A stretch of 64,000 nt of DNA, from positions 1,178,001 through 1,242,000 of the forward strand of contig JAUDYN010000008.1 in NCBI GenBank assembly GCA_030407005.1, given 5' to 3'. Origin of the DNA: Desarmillaria ectypa. Taxonomy: Eukaryota; Basidiomycota; Agaricomycetes; Agaricales; Physalacriaceae. Positions 19,538 through 53,567 of this stretch are shown here, piece after piece. The position numbers and the translations under genes are program-made. Each line of letters opens with the position of its first letter. Within the stretch, counting starts at the first letter, position 1. The notes beneath the pieces were generated by a model, which saw nothing but the letters and a program-made list of their open reading frames with translations, was not told the DNA's origin and ran no database searches.

Positions 19538-19960
19538 TGTTAGGTGCCGACTTGGACACGTGACTTGGGGCAGTCAGCTGATCCCTCTGGGCCATTATGC
19601 GTTCGAACGATCACCCAAATGAGAGATAGAAGCTAAGGAGCCTTCAGTCTTGTGTAGACAAGAAGTGTATGATTGTAATTTAAACAAGAGATAGAGTACA
19701 ACTGTCTAGTTTACTCTGTTTATATAGTATTTCTATGGCATTATAATTAGATGAAACGCTATGGTCCATGCACAAACGGTGTTGAAGTTGGACGATCCGG
19801 GAGGATCATAAAACCAATAGAAAGTGTCTGGGGTGACAGACGGTGAGAACGAGGGTAGTAGCTGGTGAATAGCTAGATACGAGTCAGTTTCTGGGCTAGA
19901 TTAGATGGATGAGTCATGGATATGACTTGGATAAGATAAGATAACGGAAAAATTGTAACA
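19538..19960 (-). repeat. Solo LTR of gypsy family A
   Basis: 423 bp, reverse-oriented relative to copy A, with TGTTA...TAACA ends and clear similarity to the 424-bp LTR of copy A throughout (for example GTTCGAACGATCACCCAA and GACGATCCGGGAGGATCATA). It is flanked by a perfect 5-bp target duplication CTGGA (19533-19537 and 19961-19965). It inserted in the copia leader. Confidence 0.85.
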
Positions 19961-20599
19961 CTGGAGGCTTGAATGAGGAGTTTTATTCCTTTAGTGTGCT
20001 ATGAACTTTATTTTTTTTTCTCTAGTTATATTTTGTGCTTTTATACTTCTTAGAACCAAGCCAACTTCCTACCCCTATACCTATCTGCTCTGATAAATCC
20101 TGCCAAGTAGTGACCTGCTCTGTCTTGTCCACCCCTTTTTACACTCCTAAATGATTCTCCTAGAGAGAAACCATATAGGATCACCATTATTGGTGATATT
20201 AAGGCAGAGGCATAGGCTTCCACTGGTGGATGGCCATCCATTATGTCTGACATGGTCCCTAGTCTAGTGGAAAAGTGGGTTACTGATAGTGGATGGTAGT
20301 GCAGATGGCAGTCCATTGGCCCCTGGTCTCTGGTCTGACAGAAAAGTGGGTTACTGACAAATGGATAGCAGTGCAGATGGCAGCCTATTGTCCCCTAACC
20401 TTCATTTCTAGTGGATCCTAGTCCTGTATTCCTATTAACTGAGTAAGTGGGTGTTGTTAGTCCTGTGACAAGTACTAGCTTAGCAGAAGCCAAAATTTGA
20501 TGCACACATATATATAGTGCAGCATACAGCTCTAACTGAACTACTTATATCATCACCAACTTCACACTCTTGTACTTTACATACACATATAGAACCAAA
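19961..20599. other. Copia leader remnant, no gene
   Basis: AT-rich sequence between the solo LTR and the copia gag fragment. No coding region is supported. Confidence 0.4.
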
Positions 20600-20889: not shown

Positions 20890-21294
20890 TGTTATAATTT
20901 TTCCATTTTTTGCCTTATTTTATCTTATCATCACTCTTATCTTATTCCATATCTCTCATCTCATTGATTGACACCTGATACTCATTGATATTCTTCATAT
21001 CTATGATAGCATCACATAATAACCTCACCATACTTGCACAATAAGCATGCCATCTCCTTATTCTTGCATGGACACCTTGTTGTTATGGTTATATATTTAG
21101 ATCATCATTTTAGTATATAAGTCATGTAGTTTATGCTGTATATTCTCCATCTTTCAACTAAAGTTTATTTCTATATCACATATTCTCCACAACTGATCAG
21201 AAGACTATAGCCATACCTAAGGGTGACTGTCTGAATGCAAGATAGCCCAAAGGACCATGTGAGTCTGCAGATCACATAGACCATGAGTCTAACA
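20890..21294 (+). repeat. Gypsy copy C, 5' LTR
   Basis: 405 bp, TGTTA...TAACA ends. Contains TCTTTCAACTAA (21150-21161), the complement of the primer site just after the LTR. Confidence 0.8.
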
Positions 21295-21295
21295 A

Positions 21296-21307
21296 TTAGT
21301 TGAAAGA
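21296..21307 (+). promoter_or_regulatory. Self-priming primer-binding site, copy C
   Basis: TTAGTTGAAAGA one base after the LTR. It is a perfect 12-nt reverse complement of LTR positions 21150-21161, the expected 5' end of the transcript. Confidence 0.6.
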
Positions 21308-21334
21308 TTCACCCCTGTTTCTTCACTACCAGCC

Positions 21335-22230
21335 ATGAAGAAACAACCTTACATGACCAACAAATCACAATCAACTTGAATCATCACTCTCAGTACTGCC
21401 ATCAGTGGTGCTTTCCTGCTTGTCTTCTTTACTATATTCATATTTCTAATGTGGGGAGAGGAAATTCACAACTATTTATATAGATGATGAGTTCTATGAC
21501 CACAGAGATCCCCACCATTTCTCCTACACTATGTTCTTTCTAGGAGACCAACCTCTACCAGAGTGGATCCCACAAATCTGGCACTCTCTCAGGAAGAGGA
21601 TCTCCCTCACCACAGGATCACCTTCATTCTACAGTCTTCTGATGAATTCATAATGCATCAAGAGACTAGCCAACACTCCCAGCACAGGCTGGAATGACTC
21701 TTCACCATGGAGGAATATGCACAGAACCTACAGGTTAGATTCTGAACCTCCAGTGAGCCTCCCTCCTCCTATGTGCCTGTATGCCCAGCTAGTGCAAGGA
21801 TTTGACACACAAACAACCCTAAGATGGGTATACCCTATTCCAACCACTCATATGGCCTCTGGGCCACCATCCAGAAATGAGGATCTTAGCCAACTAAGAG
21901 AAGCAATTTCATATCCTCCCTCCCCCTCATTGATATCACTAGTGACTCTGTGCCTCTGACCACTATCAGAGAGGCCAATGATCCCCTCAATGCTAAGGGT
22001 CCCAACTTTAAGTGGCCTAGTCTTTCAAATACTGACCAAGCAATACTTGGTCCCTTTAGAAGTAGAGCCTGAAAACTCTAAAGAAGTGACATCAAGGCCA
22101 GAGTGGCCTGGCCAAGAATCCATCCAGACATGGATGAGTATCTGGCCTTCAACAGAGGAGAACTAATCTGAGGTCCTGGAGCTGACACTATTATATGTAT
22201 CAGGATACATGCAGATTAGAACTGAGAGTT
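21335..22230 (+). pseudogene. ORF1 (membrane protein) remnant, copy C
   Basis: ATG 21335 begins a frame with an early TGA, then the membrane segment STAISGAFLLVFFTIFIFLM, matching AIGGAILLSFFTVLAILI of copy A ORF1. Further on the same protein is visible around 21,930-22,170: WPSLSNTDQAILGPF and DEYLAFNRGE, matching WPELSDYDRRIFGPY and DEWLALNRGD. Several stops; not functional. Confidence 0.6.
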
Positions 22231-23762
22231 ATACTCTCTCTTCACTGGAGATTAAGTACTGAGGTTATGCCCCAGAATGGATGATGAACAGAGGGAGTTA
22301 GAATACTCCCTATGGATTCTGGCAAGATGGGAGGGTGACAGACCAGACCTTGATAGAAGGAAGGCCTGATTTCAATAATTTTACATACAATACAGGATTT
22401 TACACTAGGCTGGAATGATTTCAGCCCCAATACATGTTGTATTTGAACTACTCACCTGACACACCAACAAACTAACTCTGACCCCTCCCCAACTCTCTGC
22501 TGACAAGCCAAATCTGGTGATCAGATTACTATCCTCATCAAGAGGAAAGTCTTCTATTCACAGATGTGAGAGAAGATTCCAGATCAAATTCTGCTCCTAC
22601 AGAACCTCTACAACTGTCAACAGAAGAAAGGATACAATTGGCTAGGAACCAATTGGCTCAGAAGAAACAATGGATAATAGAACTCTATCAAGAATTAGAG
22701 GCCACTGAAGTGGTGCAGAATCTTCATGCAGATTTCTGGCAGCTTCCAAACAAGAGAAAGCAACCAGAATAAGGATAACCCTTGAAACTGCCAAAAAAAC
22801 CCACTTCTCAATCCCTACTTGAGCATTAAGCCCATCCTTATCCAGCCTCCTAAGCTATTCAAGGAGAAACATGATGATATTGAGAGATTCATAAGTGATT
22901 GTATTACTTATTTTGAGGTGTTTTGGCATTATTTCCAATTGCTGTCACACTTCATCCTCTTTGCAACCTCATATTTCAAAGAAACAGCAAAGGATTGATG
23001 AGTCTACAAGCAACCTGAATACTGGGTCATCAATGACTAGAGCGAGATAGCTACCCACTTCTAATATCCTAGTTAAAAAGAATTTGTTGAGTTGGTCATC
23101 CAACAATTTCAAGATCTGGTGATTGAGGAAATACATGAAAAGAAAATGTTTGATCTCTGAATGGAGACCTAACCAGCCAGTCACTACTTTCAAAAGTTGG
23201 AAGAAGAGGTTAAACTAGCCAGATGATAGACTAACAAAAACAAGCATGGTGCAATGGTAAAGGCTGTCTGGATTAGTGTACCCTTCTTATACATCATATT
23301 CATTTCCAATATGAGTGTCAATATTTCACACACATATCCAGAATGGAAGGAGTGAATCCTTTGAATGTATGAAGAGCACCAGCATAAATGAGTCTTTGAC
23401 CAGACTTCTGGAGTACTATAAGATAGACAGAAGAAAGAAGCACTATAACCACAAACATACTCTAGTAGCAAACCAGCTGCTGAGGTGTCAAGTTTGATGC
23501 CCTTAAAACCAGCAACAAGCATGAGTCTCAGATGAGACACATCTATAAGATGATGGACAATATATGGAGGATCAGGATAGCTGATGGAGGTTGATTAATA
23601 AAAGGCAGAGAGACAATGTTTCCAATGTAATGAGAAGGGCCACATGGCCAAAGATTGCCCAAAGATTACCCAAAGAAGAAAGAGTACAGGGATATCTGGT
23701 CTATAGTGGTTGCTAAAGAGGAAGAAAAGGGTGATGCCAAGATTGAGGAAGTAAAAGTGTAG
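21480..23762 (+). pseudogene. gag remnant, copy C
   Basis: Gag matches copy A in pieces: NMHRTYRL at about 21,712; the coiled-coil part at 22,566-22,772; the capsid core around 22,860-23,280 (KEKHDDIERFISDCITYFEVF-like, FHA...GAMVKAV); and a degenerate zinc knuckle near 23,610. It ends at TAG 23760-23762. Multiple stops. Confidence 0.6.
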
Positions 23763-23793
23763 GTCACCAAGAGTCTGATTCCCCTTGCATGAC
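23763..23793 (+). promoter_or_regulatory. Gag/pol frameshift hairpin, copy C
   Basis: 31-nt stem-loop directly after the gag TAG, equivalent to 28719-28749 in copy A; nine of eleven stem pairs remain. The -1 frame reads through it (VGHQESDSPC). Confidence 0.5.
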
Positions 23794-24068
23794 TAAAGTC
23801 TCAATTGATGCACCTTCAGTTCCTGCTGGTCAATCTCATATATTATATATAGAATAATTGTTATATATGTGCACCCTAATAAATGACTTTGATATCAATC
23901 CACATGCACTAACAGAATTAAAAGAAAACTAATATAATATACTAACTAGATGTGATGACACTATAATTTATACTGAATCCTGAGCCTCCAATAAAGTGTG
24001 AGATTTGCCAGATGGTGCTGGCACTGCAATATGGGCTATGCTCAGAACTGAGATAAGTCAGTAAGATG

Positions 24069-24492
24069 TGTTACGATTTTTCCGTTATCTTATCTTATCC
24101 AAGTCATATCCATGACTCATCCATCTAATCAAGTCCAGAAACTGGTTCGTATCCAGCTATTCGCCGGATACCACCCTCGTTCTCACCGTCTGTCACCCCA
24201 GACAACTCCCATTGGTTCTATGATCCTCCCGGATCGTCCTACTTCGACACCGTTTGTGCATGGACCACAGTGTTTCATCTAAATATACACGTCGTAGAAA
24301 TACTATATAAATAGAGTAAACTAGCCAGTTGTACTCTATCTCTTGTTTTAATTAACACTATAAACTTCTTACTCGCACTACACTAAAGACTATTAGCGTA
24401 GTTCTCTCAATTGGGTGATCGTTCGAACGCGTAACGGCCCAGAGAGGATCAGCTGACGGTCCCAAGTCACATGCCCAAGACGGTGCATAACA
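24069..24492 (+). repeat. Copy A 5' LTR
   Basis: 424 bp, TGTTA...TAACA. TATA box TATATAAATA at 24305-24314; transcript start is expected near 24338, where ATCTCTTGTTTTA begins. Differs from the 3' LTR at four positions, all at CpG. Confidence 0.92.
24305..24314 (+). promoter_or_regulatory. LTR TATA box
   Basis: TATATAAATA, 33 bp upstream of the inferred transcript 5' end at 24338. The same box occurs in the 3' LTR at 33831-33840. Confidence 0.65.
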
Positions 24493-24505
24493 TAAAACAA
24501 GAGAT
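24493..24505 (+). promoter_or_regulatory. Self-priming primer-binding site, copy A
   Basis: TAAAACAAGAGAT follows the LTR immediately and is the exact 13-nt reverse complement of 24338-24350 (ATCTCTTGTTTTA) in the LTR, 33 bp after the TATA box. This is the arrangement of Tf1/sushi elements, where the folded-back 5' end of the mRNA primes reverse transcription. Confidence 0.75.
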
Positions 24506-24549
24506 TTTACCCACTCTTCTTCTATTACGCTAGCCATATAGAAGACTTC

Positions 24550-25743
24550 ATGTCCGGAGAAGACAGAAATTCTCAAGAACCCCGAACCGTTTCCCTCGGC
24601 GTCGCCATTGGCGGTGCTATACTACTATCCTTTTTTACGGTCCTCGCCATACTTATCTACGAGGAAGAACTCCGGGCCTTGCTGAGAAGGCAACCCCGGA
24701 GACCAGAACCGGAACCCCGACCCGTACCGCCCGTAACCCATGACCTTCCCAGGGGGATATCCCCCGCAAGACTGGGAGAACGAGAGGAACTTCCACTCAT
24801 TCGTCCCCGGGCCCGATTCATTATCGGACCCTCCTCCTCCTCCGAGGAGAGCACTAATTCGCGGGCCCCGTCTCAGGGGATCGCAGAACTTCGGGCTCAG
24901 ATTGCCCGAAATGCTCTCGCCTACAACGCGAGAGCCCTCCTCCTCCGGCGCTGGATGGAACGACCCACTGTTGCAATGGAGCAACCAACAATCGGTCTTG
25001 AGGAGACCGAGGAACACGAGAGGGACGTATGGTCTGATGGGGATGAACCCCCGCCCCCATACCCCAGTCCCCCCCCTCGTCCAAGAACCCCCGCCCCTTG
25101 CCGATCCCAGCGAAGGTCCGATTCCTCGTCACCCGACAGCAACAGCAACAGCAGCAGTGGGTCCAACGGACCCCGACACCCCGACGATCCTGGCATGGAT
25201 CGGACCCACCCCTACGGCCCCTGGAGCCGCGAGCGGTGGCCAAGCGAGGAGGAATTCTCCCTCTCCTCCCTCCCCGTCATCGAAATCTCCGATGACGAGT
25301 CCGACGACGGCCTCGTCGGAGTCCACACCCAGGCCGCTCCCCAGGCCCCCGACGATCCCTTCAACTCCGACGGGCTCGATTACACCTGGCCAGAACTCTC
25401 CGACTACGATCGGAGAATATTCGGTCCATACCGGACCGCAGCATGGGAAATTCGACGAAGGGACGTCGAAGCCCGAGACCTCTGGGAAGAACCCAGAATG
25501 GAGATGGATGAGTGGCTCGCCCTTAACAGGGGCGACCCCATCCGGGTACCAATGGAAGGCCCTAGCAACGCCAGGGCCCTCATCGTCAATCACCGGATTC
25601 ACGCCAATCGTGACCGGTCAATCTTCGGTCCCGCTGCCGGGGATCGTTTTCCAGGGTTATTACCCAGGACCCCACAGGAGCAACGAGAGCTGGACAGGAC
25701 CCTCCAGCATCTCTGGAGGTTGGAGATGGCACGAGAAGATTGA
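24550..25743 (+). CDS. ORF1: single-pass membrane protein overlapping gag
   Basis: 397 codons, ATG 24550 to TGA. Residues about 13-37 form a hydrophobic segment (GVAIGGAILLSFFTVLAILI) followed by EEEL and a basic cluster (RRQPRR), so a single-pass membrane protein with the C-terminus probably in the cytosol. The rest is Pro/Arg-rich with a PPPY motif at residues 168-171 and an acidic C-terminal domain (SLPVIEISDDESDDG, then WPELSDYDRRIFGPY). From 24740 it shares its DNA with gag in the +1 frame. Copies B and C retain both the membrane segment and the C-terminal motif in this frame, so the ORF has been under protein-level selection. The AUG has a weak context (T at -3), and the next AUG on the RNA is that of gag, which fits leaky scanning. 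Function unknown; I know of no matching family. Confidence 0.75.
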   Translation: MSGEDRNSQEPRTVSLGVAIGGAILLSFFTVLAILIYEEELRALLRRQPRRPEPEPRPVPPVTHDLPRGISPARLGEREELPLIRPRARFIIGPSSSSEESTNSRAPSQGIAELRAQIARNALAYNARALLLRRWMERPTVAMEQPTIGLEETEEHERDVWSDGDEPPPPYPSPPPRPRTPAPCRSQRRSDSSSPDSNSNSSSGSNGPRHPDDPGMDRTHPYGPWSRERWPSEEEFSLSSLPVIEISDDESDDGLVGVHTQAAPQAPDDPFNSDGLDYTWPELSDYDRRIFGPYRTAAWEIRRRDVEARDLWEEPRMEMDEWLALNRGDPIRVPMEGPSNARALIVNHRIHANRDRSIFGPAAGDRFPGLLPRTPQEQRELDRTLQHLWRLEMARED

Positions 25744-26754
25744 GGAGGAAGAGCCTCAATACAATACGTTTACCTACGATACAGGCTACTACGGAGGGAT
25801 GGAATACCACCACCCTCAATACGAAATCTATCCGGGTTACCCACCGGATACCCCGGTCGTAAGCCCACGACCACTTCCCAACTCACCCCCTCATCATAAG
25901 GTGCATCACCAAGGATACCACCCTTACCAGGGTGGCAGTCTTCTCTTCGCAGGGGCAGGAGAAGAAATGGAAGCAGAAGGACCGCCGGCAGGAAACGCCA
26001 CCGCAGGGGCGTCAAGGAATCCTGCTACGGCAGAAGAAACTCGGCAGCAGATGCGAACCGAGTTACAGGAAAAAGAGCGGCGCATAGCGGAGATGCGTAG
26101 CGAGCTCGACAAGGAGGATGCCGCCCGCAAGACACTGGCGGATTACCTCCGAGTCCAAGAGCGGGAGAAGGAGCCGGAAAGAGGAAGACCGCCGGGACCA
26201 CCAAGAGGTTACCCGGGGTACAGGCCGGATCGATTTTCGATCCCAAGACCGCCCCCTGGTCAGGGACCACCTGACCCAATCCCGAATCCAGTCGGGAATG
26301 CCGCCGCTGATGCCCCCTATCTGGGCATCAAGCCGACCCTCGTCAAGGTCCCCGCCCCGTTCAAAGGGGACCATGATGATATTGAACGCTTCATAGGCGA
26401 TTGCATCGCCTATTTTGAAGTGTTCAGACACTATTTCCAGATGCCGTCGCACCTGGTACTATTCGCGACATCCCACTTCGAGGGTGCCACCAAGGACTGG
26501 TGGGTCTACAAGAGACCCGAATACTGGGTAGGCGATGCCTTTGACGGCACCGCTGCCCACTTCCGATACCCCGACTGGGCCGATTTCGTCGACTTGGTCA
26601 CAAGACAATTCCGAGATCCGGCGATCGAGGAAATCCACGAAAAGCGCATGTTTGACCTGCGCATGGGAGCACAGCCCGCCTCCCACTACTTCCAGAAGCT
26701 GGAAGAAGAAGCAAAGCTAGCGGGCCGGAGATCCGACGAAGCGGAAAGAGGCGC
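24740..26754 (+). CDS. gag: Gag, 5' part (interrupted by insertion)
   Basis: Starts MTFPGGYPPQDWE (copy B: MSFPGGYLLPDWE). The first about 335 codons overlap ORF1 and are Pro/Ser-rich. A coiled-coil region follows (about residues 430-480, QQMRTELQEKERRIAEMRS), then a capsid-type core (APFKGDHDDIERFIGDCIAYFEVF, ATSHFEGATKDWW, FVDLVTRQFRDP, QPASHYFQKLEEEAKLAG). True gag continues at 28217: removing the insertion plus one GCGC joins ...AER to GAMVKAVRLG with the frame kept. With the insertion, translation runs into TGA 26777-26779. Intact Gag would be about 840 residues. Confidence 0.85.
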
Positions 26755-28212
26755 TGATGTGCTTGGTAACGGCGAGTGACAAAAGAATTAGGGAATGGCA
26801 ATGAACACCAATCACACTAAACCTCTTACTACTCTACACTTAATCACCAATATTGAATTCGGGCGGTTTCGAGTACGATGGAAGCACTCTGCAGACTTCA
26901 ATAATCAAGTACAATTGTCTTTAAGACGTTTTATTCGTTACTAGTGAGTTTATACAAAGTACTACTCGTACTAGTGGGGTGGGTAAGACACAATTAGATA
27001 AGAGTGACTTGGTTTGAGCTACTGCGCTCGTTCTGACTGAAACGGCTTCAGGCTGGTGGCGCTCTTGGCCCTATGCTGCTTCCTACAAGTGATAAACACT
27101 TGACCAGTCGCACTCTTGGCTGACTAGTGGCGCTCTTGGCCTAAGAATAAACTGATGGCACTCTTGGCCCTATACTGCTTCCTACAAGTGATAAACACTT
27201 GACTAGCCGCACTCTTGGCTAACTAGTGGCACTCTTGGCCTAAGAATAAACTATAACTCCGAGAACTTTGCTTGAACTAACTTCAAAACACTCCGGACCT
27301 TTGCAGGACACAACAGTGACTCTAATGGACTTCAATTCAATGCAATTCTATGGGTGACTTAGCGACTATTAATCACTTCGTCGAGGTCAAGCACAAAAGC
27401 CTTTAATTGGGGACACCAGTTACTACCAGTGAGGGCTCAACTGCGGGGATGGCTTGCCTGCTTTGCACGAGTGCCCATCCCACTACTTATATACTACTGA
27501 GGCAAAACTATAAATATTATCTGGGTATAGGGTATATTGGTAAGGATTTCTTGGCTAGTCACGAATAATGGTGAATAATCACACAATAGTCGGTCTAGTC
27601 TGTTTTCTTTTCAAATATTCGGTCTAGAGACTCCACAGTTGGTCTTTCCGCACCCTTGGCACAACTACATGCCCTAGTAACGCGGTTATATGGATATCCG
27701 GATATTGGTGCCTGTAACAGCTATCTGATCATGATCGAGGGTGCAGTCTGGCTCCACTAGCATCGATCATAAGAGATAATATCGAAATAGTCGGATCTGG
27801 GCTCAAGGTTAATCCATTCCTAATTTATTTCTAAGTCCTGTTTCAAGATTGCCATGTGACTAGTTATCCTGACTTAGGCGTTTATGCCCAGTCTGGGCTG
27901 CTAGTGACAGAACTTGACGAGATCTGTGTACTCTGCTCCTGGTTTTTGTGTGCTAGTAGCATCCTTCGTTTGCTAGTGGCTGTATTTCACTTAGTCCTGC
28001 TAGCATTCGAGTTACTAGTCTGGCCGGCTGGTAGATTTAACCCACTAATGGTGTTGCATCTAAGTCCTGGCTCTACCAGTTGCTTACTGCTTTTAACTAT
28101 CAGCTCGAAGCCTCAGCTATAGTCCTCTATGTATCACTAGTATAGGATAGATGTGCAATAGTATTGTTACAAAATCGCAAAATCTAGGTGTGAATGCATA
28201 GACGGCATATCA
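26755..28212. mobile_element. 1,458-bp insertion in gag (solo LTR or non-autonomous element)
   Basis: It begins TGATGTGC and ends GCATATCA, an 8-bp imperfect inverted repeat with TG...CA ends, and is flanked by GCGC on both sides (26751-26754 and 28213-28216). Copies B and C lack it, and excision with one GCGC restores gag. It contains no gene. TG...CA with a 4-bp duplication fits a solo LTR; a DNA element with a 4-bp duplication is the alternative. It contains a tandem duplication at 27051-27253. Confidence 0.7.
27051..27253. repeat. Tandem duplication, about 102-bp unit
   Basis: Two adjacent units with the shared landmarks CTCTTGGCCCTATNCTGC, CAAGTGATAAACACTTGAC and CACTCTTGGCTNACTAGTGG, each ending CCTAAGAATAAACT. 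Most differences are transitions. Confidence 0.8.
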
Positions 28213-28718
28213 GCGCGATGGTAAAGGCGGTACGACTAGGAGTTCCTAGTTCGTATACCACCTTTATCTCGAATATGGGAGTGAGCATTCCGCGCTCATA
28301 CCCAGAATGGAAGGAACGCATTCTTAGAATGTATGAAGAGAGACAGCGGAAGTGGGTCTTTGACCAGACCACAAGTACGCCTCGGGACGGCCAGAAGCAG
28401 GGCCCACGTCCCCAACAACAACAACCCAGCGGCAAGAACACCGCTGGGGCAACAAGTCCCTTGGCTTCAAAGCCGAGTGCTGGGAGTGGAGGGGCCGGTC
28501 GCGATGTTGGAACCGGTAAGTGGACCACATACGGGGGGGCGGGGAAGCCGATGGATGTAGACCGGCAACGAGCCGAGGGGCACTGTTTCAGGTGTGACCA
28601 AAAGGGTCACCTGAGCAGAGATTGCCCTACAAGAAAAGAGAAGAATGTAGTGAGATACGTGGGGCCCACTGACGCAGTGGTGCCGAGTACCTCCAAGATT
28701 GAGGAGGTAAAAGAGTAG
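28213..28718 (+). CDS. gag: Gag, 3' part with zinc knuckle
   Basis: Continuation of gag after the insertion: AMVKAVRLGVPSSYTTFISN, EWKERILRMYEERQRKWVFD, a Gln/Gly/Ala-rich linker, then the CCHC knuckle CFRCDQKGHLSRDC (C-x2-C-x4-H-x4-C). It ends TAG 28716-28718. The last sense codons are GTA AAA GAG, the probable slippage zone. Confidence 0.85.
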
Positions 28719-28749
28719 GGCGTCAAGGGTTCGATTCCCCTTGCACGCC
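28703..28749 (+). promoter_or_regulatory. Gag-pol -1 frameshift window and hairpin
   Basis: In the -1 frame TGA 28700-28702 closes and pol opens at 28703, so slippage must happen within 28703-28718; A AAA in GTA-AAA-GAG would let a lysine tRNA move back one base. A hairpin occupies 28719-28749: an 11-bp stem with one bulged C (28744) and an 8-base loop, about 5 nt after AAA, the usual spacing. Copies B and C have the same two stops, the same A AAA and the same hairpin. Confidence 0.6.
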
Positions 28750-31700
28750 CAAGTCTCAAGGTGTGTCCTCGGTTTCCGCGGGTCAGACTCATTATTATGA
28801 AAACAGAAAATTATCTACAAAAAATATATCTATGACTTCACCGAAGCCGAAGACAAAGAAAGAATCATCAAAAACAAACAGGTACGTCATACTGCTAGAA
28901 GACGCTGACACCAGTATCTGTAGTGACAAATCCCAAGCCTCCGACGAACTGGAGCGGGACTTGCCAAGTGGTGTTGGCGCCGCAACAAAGTCCAACGAGC
29001 AGTGCTCACCGGATACGCCGCTGAGCGCACAGCGATGAGCAGGGACCAGTAGGCGGGACTCCTTCGGGCCTTCCAGAAGTCCGACCGTCCCAGTACCCGC
29101 TTCGAGCAGCAGGGCAAGCTCACCAGTTCCGCCAGGGTCGGCGGAGGACCAGGACAGTGCCTCTAACCAAGGCCAGGCTTTACCCGGACGAACTGGTCCG
29201 GGGAGTGGAAAACTTGATGAAGCTGAGTACCAAACCGGACCGGCAAGTTGCAGGGTTGACAACCGTGCGAAGGTCGCCTTAGGCACTAGCTGGGAGTCAA
29301 TGACCAAGGAATTTCAAACTCCGTCGCGAGTGGTGCTGGCCGAGGAAAAGGAACAGGATCCCGCTAGTGCCCAGGCGGTAAAAAGGGGGCATTTCAGCAG
29401 AACTACCGTCGTTGAAGTACCCGACGAAGAAGATGATACGGCGTTTAGGATGTGGCAAGACAGCCAATCCAAAGCTGGTACCCCGATATGCAGAACACCG
29501 GAAAAACAGGAACTTGACCTTCCGAATGTACGGGGAAGCGTCGAAACCGATACCTATCCTAACAAGGGGGTATCAATCGCTTCCGAATGTACGGGGAAGC
29601 CGGAAAAGTCTTCTAAATGCACAGGGAAGCAAGACGGATTCCAATGGTTTAAACCATTTGGAATTGACTGGACGATGCGCGCTATATGCGACTCCAAGAA
29701 TTTGGCAAATGCCAAAGCAGTTCTCTCCATTTGGGTACATCCCAAACGACTTGGAGAAATCAACGACAAACTTATTCAAAGCTTACAAATGGGAGGGAGC
29801 ATTGCCCGGGAACAGCTCTATGAATTACACGAACCCATTCGTTATATTCGCGGCACCAAGAGTTCTGGACGGGACTTCCTGGTAGACATCCAACTTTCCC
29901 CATGTACCAGGAAAAAAGTATTGACAACCTGAGCATTGTTGGATAGTGGTTGCACGGGCAGCTCTATCAACCGAACATATGTCCAACAACACCAGTTAGA
30001 CACCAGGAAGGCCGCAGCCCCTATACCGGTCTATAATGCCGATGGAACGCGCAATAAAGCAGGGGACGTCACCGAATTCGTAGAACTATGAATGACAATT
30101 GGAGGACACAGCGAGCGCATTGACCTCGCAGTTACAGACTTAGGTTCCAAAACCATGTACTTGGGACATGACTGGCTTAAACGCCACAACCCCCTCGTAA
30201 ACTGGAAAGCGGGGACCTTGACATTTGGACGATGTCATTGTGTTCAGAACTACTTCACCCTGCCAGACGCGGAGGAAGAAGATCGATGGGATGAAGAGCT
30301 CGAAGAAGGAGAAAGTATCCTTGCTGTAAATATGCAAGAAGAAATTATCCTTTGTGCCGTCCATCATGCAAATGAGTTAGCAGCTGCAGCTAATGCTGAA
30401 AAGCCGAAGCAGATGTTTGAGGAGCTCGTGCCTCCTCAGTATCAAAGCTTTAGAGATTTATTCTCTAAAGAAAGCTTTGACGAGTTACCAGAACGAAGAA
30501 CCTGGGACCATGCTATCGAGCTAATCCCCAATGTGAAATCCACCCTAGATTGCAAGGTGTACCCGCTCAATCGCAATGAGCAGGAACAATTAGATAAGTT
30601 CTTAGATGAGAACTTAAACTCAGGACGCATTCGTCCCTCGAAATCCCCGTTCGCCTCTCCCTTCTTCTTTGTCAAGAAAAAGGATGGCTCTCTACGACCA
30701 GTTCAGGATTATCGAAAGCTGAATGAAATGACGATCAAAAATCGTTATCCCCTCCCGCTCATCTCCGAGCTTATCGACAAATTACGAGGAGCCAAATACT
30801 TCTCCAAGTTGGATGTACGATGGGGTTACAATAATGTCCGTATTCGAGACGGAGACGAAGAAAAGGCCGCATTCAGAACTAACTGAGGGCTCTTTGAACC
30901 CACGGTAATGTTCTTTGGGCTCACAAATTCACCAGCCACATTCCAATGGATGATGAACGACATATTCAAGGATTTGATCGCCAGAGGAAAGGTCACCATT
31001 TACCTCGATGACATACTCATCTTCACAAAATCCTTGACAGAACATCGAAACATAGTACGACAAGTACTCCAGCGACTTCGAGAAAACAAATTGTTCCTCA
31101 AAGCCGAGAAATGCGAGTTTGAGGTGCTCGAAACTGAATACCTTGGGGTCATCATAAGCGAAGATGCCATTCGCATGGATCCAGTCAAGATAGCAGGGAT
31201 AGCGGAATGGCCAACCCCAATGAAAAAGAAGGAACTACAATCCTTCTTAGGATTCACGAACTTCTATCGAAAGTTCATCAAAGACTATTCCAAAATAGTC
31301 CGTCCCCTCACCCAGTTGACCGGAAAAGTAGACTGGACCTGGGGATCAGAACAAGAACAGGCGTTTGATCAGATCAAGAAGCTGATGACGACAAACGTAG
31401 TCCTAACGATTCCCTCGGATGATGGAAAATTCCGAGTAGAAGCAGATGCGAGTGACGGAGCCATTGGTGCGGTCCTCAGCCAAGAAAAAGAAGGCAAATG
31501 GAGACCCATCGCCTTTATGTCCAAGGCGCTCACCGCTACCGAGCGCAACTATGAGATCTATGACAAAGAACTACCAGCCATCATGCTAGCATTAGAGGAG
31601 TGGCGCCATTATCTCATGGGCGCCAAAGAAACCATCGAGATCTGGACTGACCACCAGAATCTCCAATACTTCCGAAAACCCCAGAAGTTGAATCGCCGAC

Positions 31701-33562
31701 AAGCGCGATGGGTCACTGAACTAGCGGAATACCACTTTATCCTTCAACATAAAGCCGGAACCGCTAATCAAAAAGCTGATCTTCTCAGTAGACGAGATGA
31801 TCATGATCAGGGAAAAGAAGACAACAAAGATATTGTCGTTCTATCCCCAGAACACTTCCGCGCCTTGATAATACCAACCACGGAAGAAAGAATCACGCGT
31901 ATAAGAGACGCAACAAAACAGAAGGAACAGTGGGACCAGGGAATCGAAAAATCCCTCAACCACGAAAGAGGAATCACACAGGAGAATGAAATCCTGTGGT
32001 ACGATGGACGAGTCTATGTCCCCAACGACTCAATGTTACGTGGTGAGATCATTGCACAATTCCATGATCATATCACCGCTGGACATCCCGGAATCGCCAA
32101 AACCAAAGAACTCATACTCCGTGAGTATTGGTGGCCGAAGATGAAGAAGGACGTAGAATCTTACATCAAAGGATGTGAGACTTGTCAAAGGACGAAGAGC
32201 GACACGCAGGCCAAGGCTGCCCCTCTTCACCCCAATGCAATTCCTGATATGCCATGGACACATATCTCAGTCGATATGATCACCGGACTCCCAGAGTCAG
32301 ATGGATTTGACGCTCTACTAGTCATCGTAGACCGTTTCTCCAAAAATATCCTCTTGATTCCATGCAATGAGGAACTATCAGCAGAAGGATGGGCGTTAAT
32401 CCTTCGCAACCAAGTATATGCGAAGCATGGAATGCCGCAAGTGGTCATCTCTGACAGAGGACCCCAATTCGTCTCAGCATTTATGAAAGAACTATATCGA
32501 ATGCTGAATATCACTCAAAACGCGTCTACGGCCTATCATCCACAGACAGATGGGCAGACAGAGAGAGTCAACCAGGAGGTTGAAAAATACCTTCATATCT
32601 TTGTCAACCATAGACAGACTGACTGGGTAGCATGGCTACCACTCGCCGAATTTGCCCATAACAACCGAATTCACTCGGCTACGGGCAAAAGTCCTTTCAT
32701 GGTCCTATACGGACGAAATCCCCGACTCATTCCTGAGTCAATACAGAAAACCGGCTTTGTAAACCCTACAGCCATTGACTTTACGGAAACTATGGCCAAA
32801 GTCCATAAGGAGGTCCACGAAGCATTGGAAAAAGCGGCAATGCAAATGAAGGCACAATACGACAAAAAGAAGCAGACTCAACGAGAGTACCGAATTGGAG
32901 ACAAGGTATGGCTTGATACCGCCAACCTTCACCTTCCACGACCAAAGAAAAAGCTCGACGATAAACGAACGGGACCGTTCGAAATCGTTGAAAAGTCAGG
33001 AGTGGCAGCATACAAGCTGAAACTGCCACCCCACTGGAAGATCCATCCCCGGTTCAATGAGAAACTGCTGACTCCATATGTCGCACCCTCATTTGTAAAC
33101 CAAGAACAACCGCCTCCTCCTCCTCCGGACCTCATCGATGGTCAAGAAGAGTACGAAATCGAAGAGGTCTTGGACTCGCACACCAGAAAAGTACGATCCA
33201 AACGAGGACAACCATCTAGGGAAGTCACAGACTACCTAGTCAAATGGAAGGGATGGACTCGTGAACACAATTCATGGGTCCGAGAGAACGAAATGGAGAA
33301 CGCCTCAGAAGCAATCCAAGAGTATAAGGCCAACGTAAACTGCGCCGTATATACTCCAAAAATCGCAACCAGGAAAATAGTGGTCAAAATACTGGACCAT
33401 GAATATTCGGAACACGGCGATGTAGCCTATCTCGCCAAAAGAACAGATGGATGTGTCAAATGGATCATCAATCCAGACGAAGAAATATGGAAAAAGCTGA
33501 TTGATCAGTACTGGATCAATCAAATCACAACACAATACGACACCCCTTTGGAAGAGCCTTAG
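28703..33562 (+). pseudogene. pol: Pol (protease-RT-RNase H-integrase-chromodomain) with four TGA stops
   Basis: A single frame of about 1,620 codons, expressed by -1 frameshift from gag, interrupted by TGA at 29036, 29930, 30089 and 30884. Each is explained by CGA to TGA. Order: low-complexity N-terminus; protease around LLDSGCTGSSIN (29,939); RT with FPLPLISELIDKL-like and YLDDILIF (about 31,000); RNase H VEADASDGAIGAVLS (about 31,440); integrase HHCC (HDHITAGHPG...CETC), catalytic D in ISVDMITGLP, D in VISDRGPQF, E in the NQEVEKYLH region; GPY/F (GPFEIVEKSG); and a C-terminal chromodomain (DYLVKWKGWTREHNSWV, about 33,230). Stop TAG 33560-33562. Otherwise well preserved. Confidence 0.9.
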
Positions 33563-33578
33563 CAGTCGGGACGACTGC

Positions 33579-33594
33579 TTTAACAAGGGGGTAA
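33579..33594 (+). promoter_or_regulatory. Copy A polypurine tract
   Basis: AACAAGGGGGTAA just before the 3' LTR. Copies B and C have the corresponding tract. Confidence 0.6.
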
Positions 33595-34018
33595 TGTTAC
33601 GATTTTTCCGTTATCTTATCTTATCCAAGTCATATCCATGACTCATCCATCTAATCAAGTCCAGAAACTGGTTCGTATCCAGCTATTCGCCGGATACCAC
33701 CCTCGTTCTCACCGTCTGTCACCCCAGACAACTCCCATTGGTTCTATGATCCTCCCGGATCGTCCTACTTCGACACTGTTTGTGCATGGACCACAGTGTT
33801 TCATCTAAATATACACGTCGTAGAAATACTATATAAATAGAGTAAACTAGCCAGTTGTACTCTATCTCTTGTTTTAATTAACACTATAAACTTCTTACTC
33901 GCACTACACTAAAGACTATTAGCGTAGTTCTCTCAATTGGGTGATCGTTCGAACGCATAACGGCCCAGAGAGGATCAGCTGACAGTCCCAAGTCACGTGC
34001 CCAAGACGGTGCATAACA
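33595..34018 (+). repeat. Copy A 3' LTR
   Basis: 424 bp, TGTTA...TAACA, directly followed by the target duplication AGATG. Confidence 0.92.
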
Positions 34019-34023
34019 AGATG

Positions 34024-37000
34024 CCTTTGGGTCTCTGAAGCCAAACATCTTAGCATCCTCAGAGGGGTCAAGTCTTGCTTTGCCAGGGTCAGTGGAGGAT
34101 ATTTCAAGTGTCTACCAAGGCCAAAGTATGAAAGGATCAATTGACAACACCTCAAAAGCAGCTACTTCCCAAGTTAGCAACCCCAGGAGAAGTGGGTCAT
34201 ATAACCTGTAGAAAAAGAGGAAGCTCAAACTGTTGGCACCAATAATCCAGGGCAACTCTACTATCCTCAATTGACTCTTCAACATAGAGAATAGCATCTG
34301 CAAGAAATATGACCCAAGTTCCCCTAACCCTCCATCAGGCACTAACACTTCATAAGATAATAAGAAAGCCAAAGAACAGGCCAGATCTATTAGTGCCTAA
34401 GTAGTAAAAAGGGGGCAGAAGGTTACTATCAAAAAAATACCTGATGAAGAAGACAACACTGCTTTTCTTTGTTGGAAAGAGCAACAGTCAAAGAAAACCA
34501 AAATCCTGATCCCAGAACCAGGAACCCACCCTAACAAGAGGATAGAAGATCATGTATGGTACAAGCCATTCAGAGTTTACTGGACTTTATATGCCATCCA
34601 AATAGCTAAGACCATAGCTACCACCAAAGCCACCCTCTCCATGTGAGTATATTCTAAATGACTTAGAGAAATCACTAAAGACCTTGTCAGAAACCTACAG
34701 AACAAGAAAAATAATGCTCAGAAACAGCTCTATGAGCTCTGAGAACCAATTTGATATATCTGCAGTATCAAAAGTTCTGATAGGGACTTCATGGTTGATG
34801 TACAAATTGCCTCATGCATGGGAAAGAAGATTCTCACCACTAAAGCCCTACTCAATAGTGGTTGTACTGGTAGCTTGATAAACTGCACTTACATCTATGA
34901 CTATAGCCTGGATATCCAACAAGCTACTGTCCCGATTCTCATATATAATGTGGATGGAAGCCATAATAAAGCTGGTAATATTACTGAGTTTGTCAAGCTT
35001 AGAATAACAATTGGCAGGCATACCAAATGAATTGATCTTGCAGTCATAGATTTAGGCTCCAAAATGATCTATTTGGGCCATGATTGGTTGAAACAACATA
35101 ACTTGATCATCAACTGAAAAACTGGGAAGATGATCTTCAGTCATTGTCAATGCATCATGAATCCCCTTCTTTTTTCCAACACAGATGAGGAAGATAGATA
35201 GGATGAAGAACTGAAAGATGATGAAACTATTCTCACTATCAATATGCAAGAAGAACTAGTCATACAAGCAGTACACCATGCCAATGACCTAGCAGCAGCT
35301 GCTCACACTGAAAAGTCTAAGAAAACTTTCAAAGAATTGGTATCTTCTCAATACCAAAGCTTCCAAGACTTATTCTCCAAAGAAAGTTTCAACAAGTTGC
35401 CAGAACAGAAGTCTTAGGACCATGCCATTAAGCTGATTCTCAATGCGAAATTCATGCTAGACTGCAAAGTCTACTCATTGAATTGAACTGAACAGGAATA
35501 ACTTAACAAATTCCTGAACAAGAACCTCAGCTCAGGATGAATTCATCCATCTAAATCCCTATTTGCATTACCTTTCTTTTTTATAAAAAAGAAAGATAGC
35601 TCTCTCTGCTCTGTTCAGGACTACTGAAAGCTGAATGAGATGATGATCAAGAGTCATTATCCACTCTCTTTGACCTCTGAGCTCATTGATAAACTATATG
35701 GAGCCAAGTACTTTTCCATGCTGGATGTTTATTGGGGATACAATAATGTTCAGATCTAGGAAGGAGATGAAGAAAAAGCTGTTTTTCACATGAATCACAG
35801 GCTCTTTGAACCCACAGTAATGTTCTTTGGCCTCACCAACTTACCTGCTACCTTCCAGTGGATGATAAATGACATTTTCCAGGATCTTATCATAGATGGA
35901 AAAGTCATGATTTATCTTGATGATATTCTTATATTCACAAAAACCCTGAAGGAACACTGGCAAATCATTCAACAAGTACTGCAGTGGCTGTGAGAAAACA
36001 AGTTATTCCTCAAGGCTGAGAAGTGCAAATTCAAAGTGCTAGAGACCAAATATTTAGGCATCATTATCAGTGAAAACATCATATGAATGAATCTAATCAA
36101 AGTTATTGGAATAGCTGAATGGCCAACAAAAAGAAATTGCAATCCTTTTTAGGATTCACTAATTTTTACTGAAAATTCATATAAGACTATTCTCAAATCA
36201 TATGCCTGCTAATGCAGCTAACCAGGAATGCTGAATGGAATTGGAGAAAGGAATAAGAGAAAGCTTTTCTCTAACTGAAGAAACAGATAATGACAAATAT
36301 TATTTTAGCTATTTCATCAGATGATGGGAAGTTCAGAGTTGAGGCTGACACCAGTGATGGAGCTATAGGCACAGTACTCAGTTAGGAGCAAGAGAGCAAA
36401 TGAAGGCCCATTGCATTCATGTCAAAAGCTTTTACCATCACTGAACACAATTATGAGATATATGACAAGAAGCTATTGGCCATTATGCTCACCTTGGAAG
36501 AATGGCAACACTATCTAATGAGTGCCAAGAAGGAAATTGAAATCTAGATAGATCATCAAAACCTCTAATATTTCTAAAAGCCACAAAAGTTGAATCAATG
36601 ATAAGTCCAATGAGTAACTGAACTGGCTGAATACCACTTCATTTTACAATACAAATCAGACACTGCTAACTGAAAGGCTGACTTGCTCAGTCAACAAGAC
36701 AATCACAACCAAGAGAAAGAAGACAACAATAATATGGTAGTTTTTCTTCCAAAACATTTCTGTGCACTTATCTTGCCTATGAGCACCAAAGAACAGGAGA
36801 GAATCTAAGATATAACATGACAAAAGGATAAGTGGGACCACAGCATTGCTACATTCCTTGATCATGAACAAGGAATCACTCAGGATCAAGAAATTCTATA
36901 TTATGATGGGCATATCTATATTCCTTGAGACAAAATCTTATGAGGCAAAATCATTGTCTGTCATCATGACCATATCACAGCAGGATATCCTGGTATTACT

Positions 37001-38505
37001 AAGACCACTGAACTTATTCTTCAAGAATATTGGTGGCCTAAGCTGAAGAAGGACATAGAAAAGTATGTCAAAGAATGTGAAACCTGTCAGCACACCAAGG
37101 TTAGCACCCAGTCTAAGGCAGCTCTCTTACACTCAAACACAGTCTTCATCACCCCTTGGATGCATATCTCCATCAATATAGTCACTGGACTCCCTGAATC
37201 CAATAGTTATGATGCACTACTAGTCATAGTGGATCAATTTTCCAAAATGATAGTACCAGTCATCTGCTACAAGGAACTCTCCACAGAAGAGTGGGCACAA
37301 ATCCTTTGTGACCACATCTATTCTAAACATGGGATGCCCCAAGTTGTTATCTCAGACCATAGACCCTAATTCATCTTGATCTTTATGAAGGATTTATACT
37401 GAATGTTAAATATCACCCTGAACACCTTCACTGCCTACCACCCACAAACTGATGGACAGACAGAATGAGTAAACCAGGAGATTGAGAAATATCTCTAAAT
37501 TTTCATTAATCACTAACAAGACAACTGGAGTGACTGGCTACCAATAGTGGAGTTTACACATAACAACTGCATATATTTGGCCACAGAAAAAAGTCTGTTT
37601 ATAGTTCTTTATGGAAGAAACCTATGACTTATATCTGACTCAATATGAGATACTCTGTTTACAAATCCAGCAGCCATAGAATTTACTAAAACCATAGCCC
37701 AGATTCACAAAAAGGTGCATAATGCTTTAAAAAAAGTGGCAACTCAGATGAAGAAACAATATGACAAGAAAAAGTGGGCAGCACAGAATTATCAAGTTGG
37801 TGACAAGGTCTGGTTAGACATCAGTAATCTACATCTACCACAACCAAAGAAGAAACTCAATGACAAATAAACAGGACCATTTGAAATCCTCAAAAAAGCC
37901 AGTGTGGTAGTATATAAACTAAAACTGCCACCATACTGGAAATTTTATCCCTGCTTCAATAAGAAGCTATTAATATCTTACCTCATGCTCACATTCTCTA
38001 ATCAACAGTCACCACCACTGCCACCACCAGACCTTGTGGATGGACAAGAAAAATATAAGATTGAAGAGATATTAGATTCCCAGATATACTATATATAAGC
38101 CAAAAAGAGATAACAGTCTAAGACTGTAATAGACTATCTTGTCAAATGGAAGGGATGGACTCAGGAATACAACTTATAAGTCAGGGAGACAGAGATAACA
38201 AATGCACAAGAAGCTATCATTGAGTATAAAAAAGGTATACAACAAGGATGAGCAGTGGACATCACCAAAATTATAACATAAGATAAAGTGATCATCATGA
38301 TTCTTGATCATGAGTACTCAGAAAATGGAGATGTTGCTTATCTGGCACAATAATGAGATAGAGTTCAATGATGGATCAGAAATCCAGACTAGAACTAGTG
38401 GAAATCACTATTGAATGTATATTGGACTACTCAAGCAGTGTCCTAATATAACACCCCTGAAGAAGAGCTCTAGCAGTCAGAACAACTGCTTTAACAAGAG
38501 GGTAA
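34024..38505 (+). pseudogene. pol: Pol remnant, copy C (3' part)
   Basis: Collinear with pol of copy A at the protein level but full of stops. Pieces: protease LLNSGCTGSLIN (active-site Asp changed to Asn); RT MFFGLTNLPATFQWMINDIF and IYLDDILIFTK (35,790-35,990); RNase H VEADTSDGAIGT-like (36,350); integrase CETCQHTK and IVTGLPESNSYDALLVIVD (37,160-37,369); chromodomain DYLVKWKGWTQEYN (38,130). Contains almost no CpG. Confidence 0.8.
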
Positions 38506-38910
38506 TATTATGATTTTTTCATTTTTTATCTTATCTTATCTTATTGTCACCCTCATCTTATCCTGTATCTTCCATCTTATTGATTGACACCCAGTACTCA
38601 TCAATATTTTTCATATCCATGATGGCATCATACAATAACCTCACTATACTTGTACAATAAGCATGCCATCTCCTTATTCTCACATGGACATCTCATTGTT
38701 ACAGTTATATATTTAGATCATCATTTTAGTATATAAGTTGCATAGTTTATGCTATATATTCTCCATCTTTCAACTAAAGTTTATTTCTATATCATATATT
38801 CTCCACAACTGATCAGAAGACTATAGCCATGCCTAAGGGTGACTGTCTGAATGTGAGACAGCCCAAAGGATCATGTGAGTCTGCAGATCATGTGGACTAT
38901 AGGTCTAACA
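38506..38910 (+). repeat. Gypsy copy C, 3' LTR
   Basis: 405 bp, same length as the 5' LTR. The starting TGTTA has decayed to TATTA. Similarity to 20890-21294 is clear along the full length. Confidence 0.8.
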
Positions 38911-44687: not shown

Positions 44688-45291
44688 TGTTGATAACCAA
44701 CTTGACAAATAAGGTCAAATACCTAGGCTGCTTTGCATTCAGATAGTCACCTATAGTGTTATCACAAGTCTATCATTAATCAGACAACTAAAGTCTTAGT
44801 TTATAACAAAGAAGAAATTCAGAGAAGTCAGGAGATACTCAAGATGAGTATAGAATTAAACTTTAGTCAAAAGCTGAGATTTAAGGCCACAGCTTTACCT
44901 ACTTATATATAAAATATCATACCCTAATAATAAATACAATGAGTCAGAGTCTAATGCATACATTATACAGTTTCATGCCTGAAACCAGGAAATTATTAGA
45001 GATAATCTATATTACAGTAAACAGCTCTGGTCAGTCTGGTATTGATGCACTAATCAGACTGACAGAAAGTTCAGAATCTTGCCTTCAGGTATTTCAGCCA
45101 TCATGTGTAAAAGTCCTGGTCAAGAATGTGGAGAGGTCATAGAGAGGATGCATATTAGCTTGTATATCCCTGTGAGTCATCTTGTATGACTGTGTATGAG
45201 TCATGATGATATAAGTGATTCAGACACTTAGATAGTAGATCAGATAAGAGGTAATATCTGGATAAGATAAGATAATGAAAAAATTATAATA
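44688..45291 (-). repeat. Solo gypsy LTR (family F), minus strand
   Basis: About 604 bp, from TGTTGATAACC to ...AATTATAATA (decayed TAACA). It is the inverted counterpart of the LTR at 54458-56636; shared landmarks include AGATACTCAAGATGAGTATA and CAGACAACTAA. It interrupts copia sequence just before RNase H. No matching target duplication was found. Confidence 0.6.
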
Positions 45292-45739
45292 TATGCAGGA
45301 GGAGCTGTTACTTGGAGTTTAAAAAAACAGCCCACTGCAATCTTATCTACTATAAAAGCAGAATATATAGCTCTTGCATACATAACCTAAAAAGTAATAT
45401 AATTAGAGGCAATTCTAATTGAATTAGAATTGTCATCTGATTATTATAAGCCAGGACTCTTATTCATCTCTTTTACATTATTACTATACCTATATGAGAT
45501 AACTTCAGCCTTCCTACTGTGGTATATAGATACTGTCATCTTTAATTATTTCACATATAACTAACATATAGACTTCTTATTATAGTTCTATTATTAGATC
45601 TAAATACTAATAGTACAACTACTATTTTCATTGACAATCAGTTAGCAATCAAATTTACTGAGAACTCTATATTTCATGCACAATTAAAGCATATAGATAT
45701 ACAGCATCATTTTATTTATGAGTGCATGACTTCAAATGA
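45292..45739 (+). pseudogene. Copia RNase H remnant, 5' part
   Basis: GAVTWSLKKQPTAILSTIKAEY then ALAYIT is the conserved copia RNase H motif. The frame (with stops) runs on to IDNQLAIKFTENS and HHFIYECMTSNE, where copy B is inserted. It continues at 54045. Confidence 0.75.
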
Positions 45740-46157
45740 TGTTAGGACCCTGTCTATACACATGACTTGGGATGTAAGTGTCTCTCTGGGCTGTCTCGCA
45801 TTTGGACAATCACCCATTAATGAGAGGTAGACTTTAGTCTTTGGTGTGGTGCAGTAGAAGGTATATGAATCTAATTTAGTCAAAAGATAGAGTACAATGG
45901 TGGGTTTTACTCTACTTATATACTGAAAATATGGTAGTTATTATTAGGTGAAACACTATGGTCCATAAGGAAACAGTTTGGTCCAGGAGAGGATAGTGTG
46001 GAGTTGGATGGATCATAATCCAATGGGAATGAATGAGGGTGACATTCTGTGTGAAACTGGGGTGGTGGTCAGTGAATAGGTCGATACAAAGTGAGAACTA
46101 CAGTGGATTAGATAAATGTGTCATGGATATGACTTGGATAATGGAAAAATCATAACA
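45740..46157 (-). repeat. Copy B 3' LTR
   Basis: 418 bp. The adjoining CCCCCTTGTT (46161 onward) is the reverse complement of the polypurine tract. Confidence 0.85.
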
Positions 46158-53458: not shown

Positions 53459-53567
53459 ACATTAGTACGAGAAGAGCAGTAAAAAGTATTAAAAGTGTGG
53501 TGCCTCCAATGGCAGTGCTGATTGTCATTGTTTGTTGGTTGTTCTGGTTGTCATTGTTTCTGGACAT
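52770..53567 (-). pseudogene. ORF1 (membrane protein) remnant, copy B
   Basis: ATG at 53567 (minus) starts MSRNNDNQNNQQTMTISTAI and then GGTTLLILFTALLVLMYEEE, clearly the ORF1 N-terminus and membrane segment of copy A. A TGA follows. The C-terminal domain persists at 52770-52958 (LPIIELSDSSDGELD and WPDLSEADRDLFGPF). Same frame as in copy A relative to gag. Confidence 0.75.

Follow-up and report, generated by a model that had tools for sequence, protein, structure and literature searches.

Does a 397-codon open reading frame (ORF) that shares about 1 kb of DNA with gag in a fungal retrotransposon encode a protein in its own right, and, if so, what could that protein do for the element? The question is raised by a window of 64,000 nucleotides of Desarmillaria ectypa DNA (contig JAUDYN010000008.1, positions 1,178,001 to 1,242,000; positions below are those of the window), in which three related elements, here termed copies A, B and C, were compared. 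Copy A is a chromodomain Ty3/gypsy (Metaviridae) element. Its ORF1 (24550-25743, plus strand) starts 57 nt past the 5′ long terminal repeat (LTR), and the ATG of gag, at position 24740, lies 190 nt downstream of the ORF1 start in the +1 frame, so that the two frames overlap over 1004 nt (24740-25743). These coordinates agree with a preliminary description of the window, which had reported a 397-codon ORF1 with an N-terminal membrane segment and an overlap of about 1 kb with gag. We conclude from its pattern of sequence change that ORF1 is almost certainly a real overprinted, dual-coding gene. By the same evidence, ORF1 is an accessory gene of this chromodomain Ty3/gypsy lineage, and its predicted product is a single-pass membrane protein.

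The ORF1 protein was used as a query against the 32 contigs (40.6 Mb) of the genome that carries it. At least 107 matches were obtained, a few of which are two pieces of one copy, and at least 15 of them are full length and stop-free; the gag query gave at least 67 matches. ORF1 is therefore not an ORF that is absent or truncated in young copies, an outcome that the preliminary description had considered fatal to its proposal. The sequences retrieved comprise 50 A-type and 8 more divergent loci from the ORF1 matches, together with 10 B-/C-type loci. The A-family nucleotide alignment contains 47 of the 50 copies (L026, L033 and L047 were omitted because of split or short matches), and for the stop count and the codon alignment L034, which carries a frameshift, was also removed, leaving 46 copies. 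The codon alignment further includes 11 of the 18 other loci and copy B (12 divergent rows); L067, L070-L072, L074-L076 and copy C, whose ORF1 match was split or partial, were omitted. Copies are called young or old by their distance from copy A and not by LTR dating, and all evidence of selection given below is sequence evolution inside one genome.

The frame of ORF1 was kept in these copies. The net length of insertions and deletions (indels) in 24550-25743 was a multiple of three in 46 of 47 copies, L034 having one extra base. In the ORF1-only stretch the net indels were in frame in all 47 copies, and in the gag-only stretch a frame-breaking indel was found in 9 of 47 (gaps reaching the end of the aligned piece excluded). 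With CpG sites excluded, the rates of difference at ORF1 codon positions 1, 2 and 3 among the 47 copies were 0.135, 0.055 and 0.255 in the ORF1-only stretch, 0.141, 0.080 and 0.181 in the overlap, and 0.163, 0.049 and 0.039 in the gag-only stretch. The third-position excess is thus that of ORF1 in the first two stretches and that of gag in the last one. When 120-nt windows were used, the rate at ORF1 position 3 dropped from 0.185 (25630-25749) to 0.054 (25750-25869), at the ORF1 stop codon.

The contribution of each frame was analyzed with a purpose-written overlapping-gene method, in which changes are sorted by their effect on each frame (N, nonsynonymous, and S, synonymous; gag is given first and ORF1 second), CpG transitions are excluded, and intervals are obtained by codon bootstrap. 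In the overlap, the ORF1 ratio dSN/dSS was 0.35 (0.26-0.50), compared with 0.92 in the gag-only control, and dNN/dNS was 0.43 (0.36-0.50), compared with 0.97. Constraint on ORF1 beyond that forced by gag, the test that the preliminary description had called for, was thus found within this genome. The ratios were 0.43 and 0.48, respectively, when CpG changes were counted, and 12 draws of 23 disjoint pairs gave 0.31-0.36 and 0.40-0.45. In the subset nearest copy A, dNN/dNS was firm at 0.33 (0.23-0.48), and dSN/dSS, at 0.24, had a wide interval (0.13-1.28) because doubly silent sites are few. The comparison of near-A copies with eight copies at 55-63% ORF1 identity gave values of 0.40 and 0.46, that with three B-family copies at 42-46% ORF1 identity 0.43 and 0.64, and that of the eight divergent copies with the B-family copies 0.57 and 0.62; the divergent copies were aligned with the ORF1 frame as guide, which leans towards ORF1, whereas the A-family alignment used no such guide. 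In the ORF1-only stretch (24553-24736) the nonsynonymous to synonymous (N/S) ratio of ORF1 was ∼0.23. Among gag-silent changes, those creating an ORF1 stop occurred at a rate of 0.56 vs 1.07.

The same arrangement of ORF1 and gag was found in copies B and C, both of which are decayed. In copy B, on the minus strand, ORF1 (52509-53567) is 36% identical to ORF1 of copy A; its frame yields GGTTLLILFTALLVLMYEEE from 53507 and WPDLSEADRDLFGPF from 52829, and the gag frame yields MSFPGG from 53371 and NMQGTYRL from 53182. In copy C, on the plus strand (ORF1, 21353-22348), the ORF1 frame yields SGAFLLVFFTIFIFLM from 21404 and WPSLSNTDQAILGPF from 22013, and the gag frame NMHRTYRL from 21714. The two sets of peptides lie in separate frames in a +1 relation in B as well as in C. 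All the ORF1-frame and gag-frame peptides listed in the preliminary description were recovered in the frames assigned to them. DNA searches with copies B and C gave 48 and 41 matches, respectively, which, the queries aside, are 66-84% identical. Taken together, the comparisons indicate that in several of the element's old families the ORF1 protein is preserved by selection.

Selection on gag was analyzed in the same way. Stops in the overlap, counted over the 46 copies, number 12 for gag, 71 for ORF1 and 664 for the third frame; the gag frame is free of them in 37 of 46 copies and the ORF1 frame in 16. ORF1-silent changes that create a gag stop had a rate of 0.41, compared with 1.58 for those causing gag missense. 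The gag ratio dNN/dSN was 0.63 (0.50-0.78) in the overlap, and 1.06 in the control in which gag is non-coding. Constraint on gag was seen in 24743-25109 and in 25510-25740, and was mixed in 25310-25509. The case for gag is built on the avoidance of stops and on this dNN/dSN difference. Since stops are avoided and windows of constraint are present, translation of Gag appears to run through the overlap, and the stop counts together with the ORF1 dSN/dSS value (0.35 vs 0.92) indicate that both frames were maintained during the active period of the elements, as the preliminary description had proposed. Judged by N/S in the overlap (0.49 for ORF1 vs 0.85 for gag), ORF1 is the better conserved of the two frames.

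Several results weigh against this reading. Outside CpG, ORF1 stops are depleted only about twofold, and they are present in 30 of the 46 aligned copies, compared with gag stops in 9. The stops of decayed copies are mostly TGA, as expected from CpG decay of CGA codons, and may thus stem from putative decay of arginine codons. The gag third position was the faster one in two of the nine windows touching the overlap (24910-25029 and 25270-25389). On the gag side, dNS/dSS was 0.52, no better than the 0.55 of the gag-non-coding control; the eight divergent copies gave a dNN/dSN of 0.84 (0.69-1.02); and gag showed no amino-acid constraint in 25110-25309, a segment that is nevertheless stop-poor and that is perhaps an open flexible spacer whose sequence seems to be set by ORF1.

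Two rival explanations bear on coding itself. One is that the ORF1 frame is open by chance, gag DNA being GC-rich and poor in stops, and that gag forces its conservation. The region is Pro/Ser-rich, and when the gag amino acids were fixed and the codons redrawn, the ORF1 frame was open in 4 of 20000 draws, which is rare yet possible for one sequence. However, the ORF1 dSN/dSS of 0.35 against 0.92 leads us to reject a chance frame; the low N/S and the in-frame indels of the stretch outside gag, and the recognisable ORF1 protein retained in families B and C, also speak against it, and we regard it as next to inconceivable. The other rival holds that ORF1 is the sole product of the overlap, that Gag is made from a downstream start, by an ORF1-Gag frameshift or after splicing, and that the gag extension is untranslated. 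The stronger conservation of ORF1 (0.49 vs 0.85), the lack of amino-acid constraint on gag in 25110-25309 and the gag test that did not surpass its control would fit such an arrangement. It is at odds with the scarcity of gag-frame stops (12 vs 664 in the third frame), with the low rate of ORF1-silent gag-stop changes (0.41 vs 1.58), and with a gag ATG kept in 46 of 47 copies and a first gag stretch conserved to copy B. Moreover, one donor-pattern scan of ∼24550-25189 revealed no splice donor shared by 90% of the nearer-A copies. An overlap translated only as ORF1 is therefore quite improbable.

If both frames are read, a single genomic RNA would presumably yield both proteins. Of the 47 copies, 46 retain the ORF1 ATG and 46 that of gag, and the gag ATG is in the +1 frame relative to ORF1 in all 47. 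No copy has a purine at position −3 of the ORF1 ATG; 31 of the 47 have C and 16 have T. The two starts have no ATG between them in 17 of the 21 copies closest to A (26 of 47 overall), and 20 of those 21 lack an ATG in the 60 nt preceding ORF1. A weak context at the first start and few intervening ATGs suit leaky scanning: the ORF1 start would be met first, some ribosomes would initiate there to give ORF1, and the remaining ones would scan on to the gag start to give Gag(-Pol). Against this stand the four copies among the 21 nearest A that do have an ATG between both starts, and the gag start of family A, which is weak as well, with a purine at −3 in 2 of 47. Among the eight divergent copies L059-L066, the −3 base is A in 6 for gag, and T in all 8 for ORF1. 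On balance, leaky scanning probably makes both proteins. Several divergent or B-type copies (L059-L070) carry an extra ATG in the ORF1 frame, 27 nt ahead of the ORF1 start.

The features of the ORF1 protein were examined in the aligned rows. In each of the 29 rows listed, hydropathy peaks close to the N-terminus, and a single membrane helix (∼aa 16-37; 24595-24660, plus strand) is predicted after ∼15 residues. The AlphaFold model has a helix at residues 16-46, with a confidence score (predicted local distance difference test, pLDDT) of ∼92 over aa 21-40, and this is its sole confident part. The bulk of ORF1 is probably a long cytoplasmic tail; in 50 rows, the 25 residues after the helix contain a mean of 4.7 Lys or Arg. 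Downstream, a DEPPPPY sequence (aa 165-171; 25042-25062, plus strand) provides a PPxY motif, found by motif scan in 38 of 46 A-family rows and in 5 of 12 divergent rows. PPxY motifs bind the WW domains of Nedd4/Rsp5 ubiquitin ligases. The segment LPVIEISDDESDD (aa 241-253; 25270-25308, plus strand) contains LPVIEISDDE, which we take to resemble a small ubiquitin-like modifier (SUMO)-interaction motif (SIM); its core pattern was detected in 44 of 46 A-family rows and in all 12 divergent rows. Per-residue identity delimits a conserved C-terminal block (aa 280-397; 25387-25740, plus strand) with WPxLS, MDEWLALN, PGLxPR and a terminal helix. The lowest ORF1 ratios, 0.22 and 0.22, were found at the end of this block (25510-25740), for which AlphaFold gave no confident fold.

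Four other candidate features were discarded. The Mito_fiss_reg family matched 11 of 36 ORF1 members (best E 0.0004), but copy A was below the cut-off and its match was restricted to the Pro-rich region 112-196. The helix predicted at 111-137 of copy A is no candidate for an amphipathic cytoplasmic helix, its value being reached by 1425 of 2000 shuffles. PTAP and YPxL motifs occurred in only 4 and 1 of 58 rows, respectively.

From this architecture we tentatively propose that ORF1 is a membrane adaptor with the host ubiquitin ligase, tying particles to membranes and to the route of ubiquitin and the endosomal sorting complexes required for transport (ESCRT), although we hold this specific role to be somewhat less than an even bet. 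The short N-terminus of ORF1 would lie on the outer side of the membrane and its long tail in the cytoplasm. PPPPY would recruit a host ligase of the Nedd4/Rsp5 type, and hence ESCRT; the SIM-like motif could recruit a sumoylated partner; and the C-terminal block might bind Gag or another component of the element. Particles or Gag would in this manner be tethered to the membrane and led into the ubiquitin/ESCRT path, for assembly, release or escape from degradation. The fungal Rsp5 adaptors Rcr1/Rcr2 and Ssh4/Ear1 consist of one membrane helix and a cytoplasmic PPxY, and the predicted architecture of ORF1 resembles theirs. No Rcr/Ssh4-type family was among the Pfam matches of the 36 ORF1 members scanned. 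Some results count against the proposed role: the AlphaFold model is poor overall (mean pLDDT 44.5), the topology signal is weak, the C-terminal flank of the helix being the more positive one in 37 of 50 rows, and PPxY is missing in 8 of 46 A-family and 7 of 12 divergent rows and has no site in the C-type copy L073. Decay may account for part of the PPxY loss. Taken as a whole, a dual-coding gene with a role in membranes and ubiquitin is the explanation that we favour, with moderate confidence.

Other membrane roles were weighed against that of an adaptor. A protein of ∼70 aa termed sORF2, encoded upstream of gag in the Drosophila MDG1 group, is described in PMC11952523 as a membrane protein under selection that enables Env-free transfer of capsids into the oocyte; four of six sORF2 have a myristoylation motif (PMC11952523). 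ORF1 might accordingly be a fusogen or transmission protein of the type of insect sORF2 or the reoviral fusion-associated small transmembrane (FAST) proteins, with which the element could pass between cells or hyphae without an envelope. As in the insect Metaviridae that use a short membrane ORF in this way (PMC11952523), ORF1 has its start codon 5′ of that of gag, on the sense strand, and has a membrane anchor, here a single N-terminal helix followed by the Lys/Arg-containing stretch. On the other hand, ORF1 has 397 aa, compared with ∼70-200 aa for sORF2/FAST-like proteins, and it overlaps gag and, judged by copy A, lacks an amphipathic ectodomain (aa 1-15: mean hydrophobicity −0.49, moment 0.26); the predicted helix at 111-137 does not exceed shuffled sequences in amphipathicity either. 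None of the 58 rows has a Met-Gly start; the N-terminus is missing from 6 of these rows. In addition, cell walls stand between fungal cells. Given its size, start and ectodomain, ORF1 was not filed with sORF2, and the likeness is one of position and membrane anchoring rather than of demonstrated homology; a fusogen is unlikely, and sORF2 is best taken as the nearest functional parallel. The suggestion that ORF1 is a retroviral Env-like glycoprotein fares worse still. ORF1 does have a membrane segment, but there is no layout of signal peptide and ectodomain, the helix being at ∼aa 16-37 of 397 with only ∼15 residues before it, the bulk is probably cytoplasmic, and the gene is 5′ of gag rather than 3′ of pol. 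An Env-like identity, rejected on this architecture, is most improbable. Of the interpretation given in the preliminary description, a membrane-anchored second protein overlapping gag therefore stands and its env-like role falls, and it is refined in that ORF1 is the more strongly conserved frame of the overlap.

Relatives of ORF1 outside this genome were not detected by the searches performed. No Pfam family reached the cut-off with ORF1 of copy A, no PDB chain matched the ORF1 profile at E 1, and no protein relative was found at E 0.001 among 263 candidates in one search and the 7995 most word-sharing candidates in two others, the latter possibly swamped by low-complexity words. The fungal-element content of the database was uncontrolled, so missing relatives say little about other species. 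A scan of IMG/VR with pol gave no match. Among the titles and beginnings of abstracts listed from an openly licensed library (at most 20 of up to 316 papers per search), no gag-overlapping membrane ORF of a fungal element was described. Full-length gypsy families of fungi are reported to have mostly one fused ORF or two, gag and pol (PMC2864245); compared with those, copy A has a third gene, whose start lies upstream of gag and whose last 1004 nt are shared with it. In plant LTR retrotransposons, additional conserved ORFs, some with membrane segments, have been described (PMC7264820); these are mostly located between pol and the 3′ LTR, and the word "overlap" is absent from the main text of that article.

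The remainder of copy A is that of a chromodomain Ty3/gypsy element. Its LTRs (TGTTACG...CATAACA; 24069-24492 and 33595-34018, both plus strand) are 424 bp long and differ by 4 mismatches, and AGATG flanks the element on both sides as a 5-bp repeat, as seen by eye. The first part of gag (24740-26779, plus strand) comprises the N-terminal extension shared with ORF1 and, farther on, a capsid-type region in which Retrotrans_gag scored under the Pfam cut-off (15.5 of 24.1 bits). Near 26760, gag is interrupted by ∼1.45 kb of foreign DNA (26760-28212) that loci L010, L013 and L014 lack. Copy A is therefore not intact, and the stop at 26779 is not the natural gag stop. Short matching ends of the insertion suggest a target duplication, and a part of the insertion (∼27954-28214) occurs twice in locus L010. 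Past the insertion lies the gag remainder with a CCHC zinc knuckle (28194-28718, plus strand; PF00098), whose first bases belong to the insertion and which is co-linear with L010, L013 and L014 from 28213. The end of this remainder coincides with the opening of the pol frame (28700-28720), in the −1 frame, and the gag-pol of copy A may be expressed by −1 frameshifting. The pol region (29300-33562, plus strand; reverse transcriptase (RT), RNase H, integrase and chromodomain) is broken by stops. RVT_1, RT_RNaseH, Integrase_H2C2, rve and Chromo were above the Pfam cut-off, and a Tf2-1-like SH3 domain was also matched; the domains lie in ORFs 30092-30886 and 30908-33562, family matches being found from 30092 onward and none being assigned to 29300-30092. 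With the chromodomain Ty3/gypsy elements (chromoviruses, Tf1/sushi-like), copy A has in common RT, RNase H, H2C2 integrase, SH3, chromodomain and CCHC.

Copy A lies inside copy C. From the order of the copy C pieces and the position of its LTRs (20892-21298 and 38508-38915, 87% identical), it can be deduced that copy A is nested in an older copy C (20892-38915). The LTRs of copy B (45731-46157 and 53618-54044) are 93% identical. Inverted repeat pairs at 44688-45126 and 56197-56636 (78-86%) bracket the copy B region, and a direct repeat (54568/55929, 94%) accompanies the inverted pairs around copy B, perhaps as part of another element. A segment at 19742-19961 is inverted and ∼91% complementary to the start of the copy A LTR, and is possibly a solo LTR or a fragment. 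Elsewhere in the genome, loci L010 (C18:3647) and L011 (C23:2935747) had equal ORF1 scores on two contigs, and the B-type search gave equal scores at C18:14944 and C23:2939992 on the same contigs, which perhaps carry a duplicated or haplotype stretch.

An annotation that allows one frame per stretch would miss the ORF1 gene. Here, ∼1 kb of DNA encodes what appear to be two kept proteins, with ∼100 natural copies in one genome as replicates, so that ORF1/gag offers a well-powered natural case for studies of overprinting. A membrane protein with a PPxY motif in a supposedly intracellular element also raises the question of whether fungal retrotransposons use membranes, or even leave cells. It is conceivable, although rather unlikely, that in a whole fungal chromodomain lineage a large overprinted membrane protein hooks capsids to membranes and to the ubiquitin/ESCRT machinery, and thereby enables these envelope-less elements to exit from the cell or to spread between hyphae. 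If so, this exit route would be an independently evolved fungal counterpart of the insect sORF2 route.
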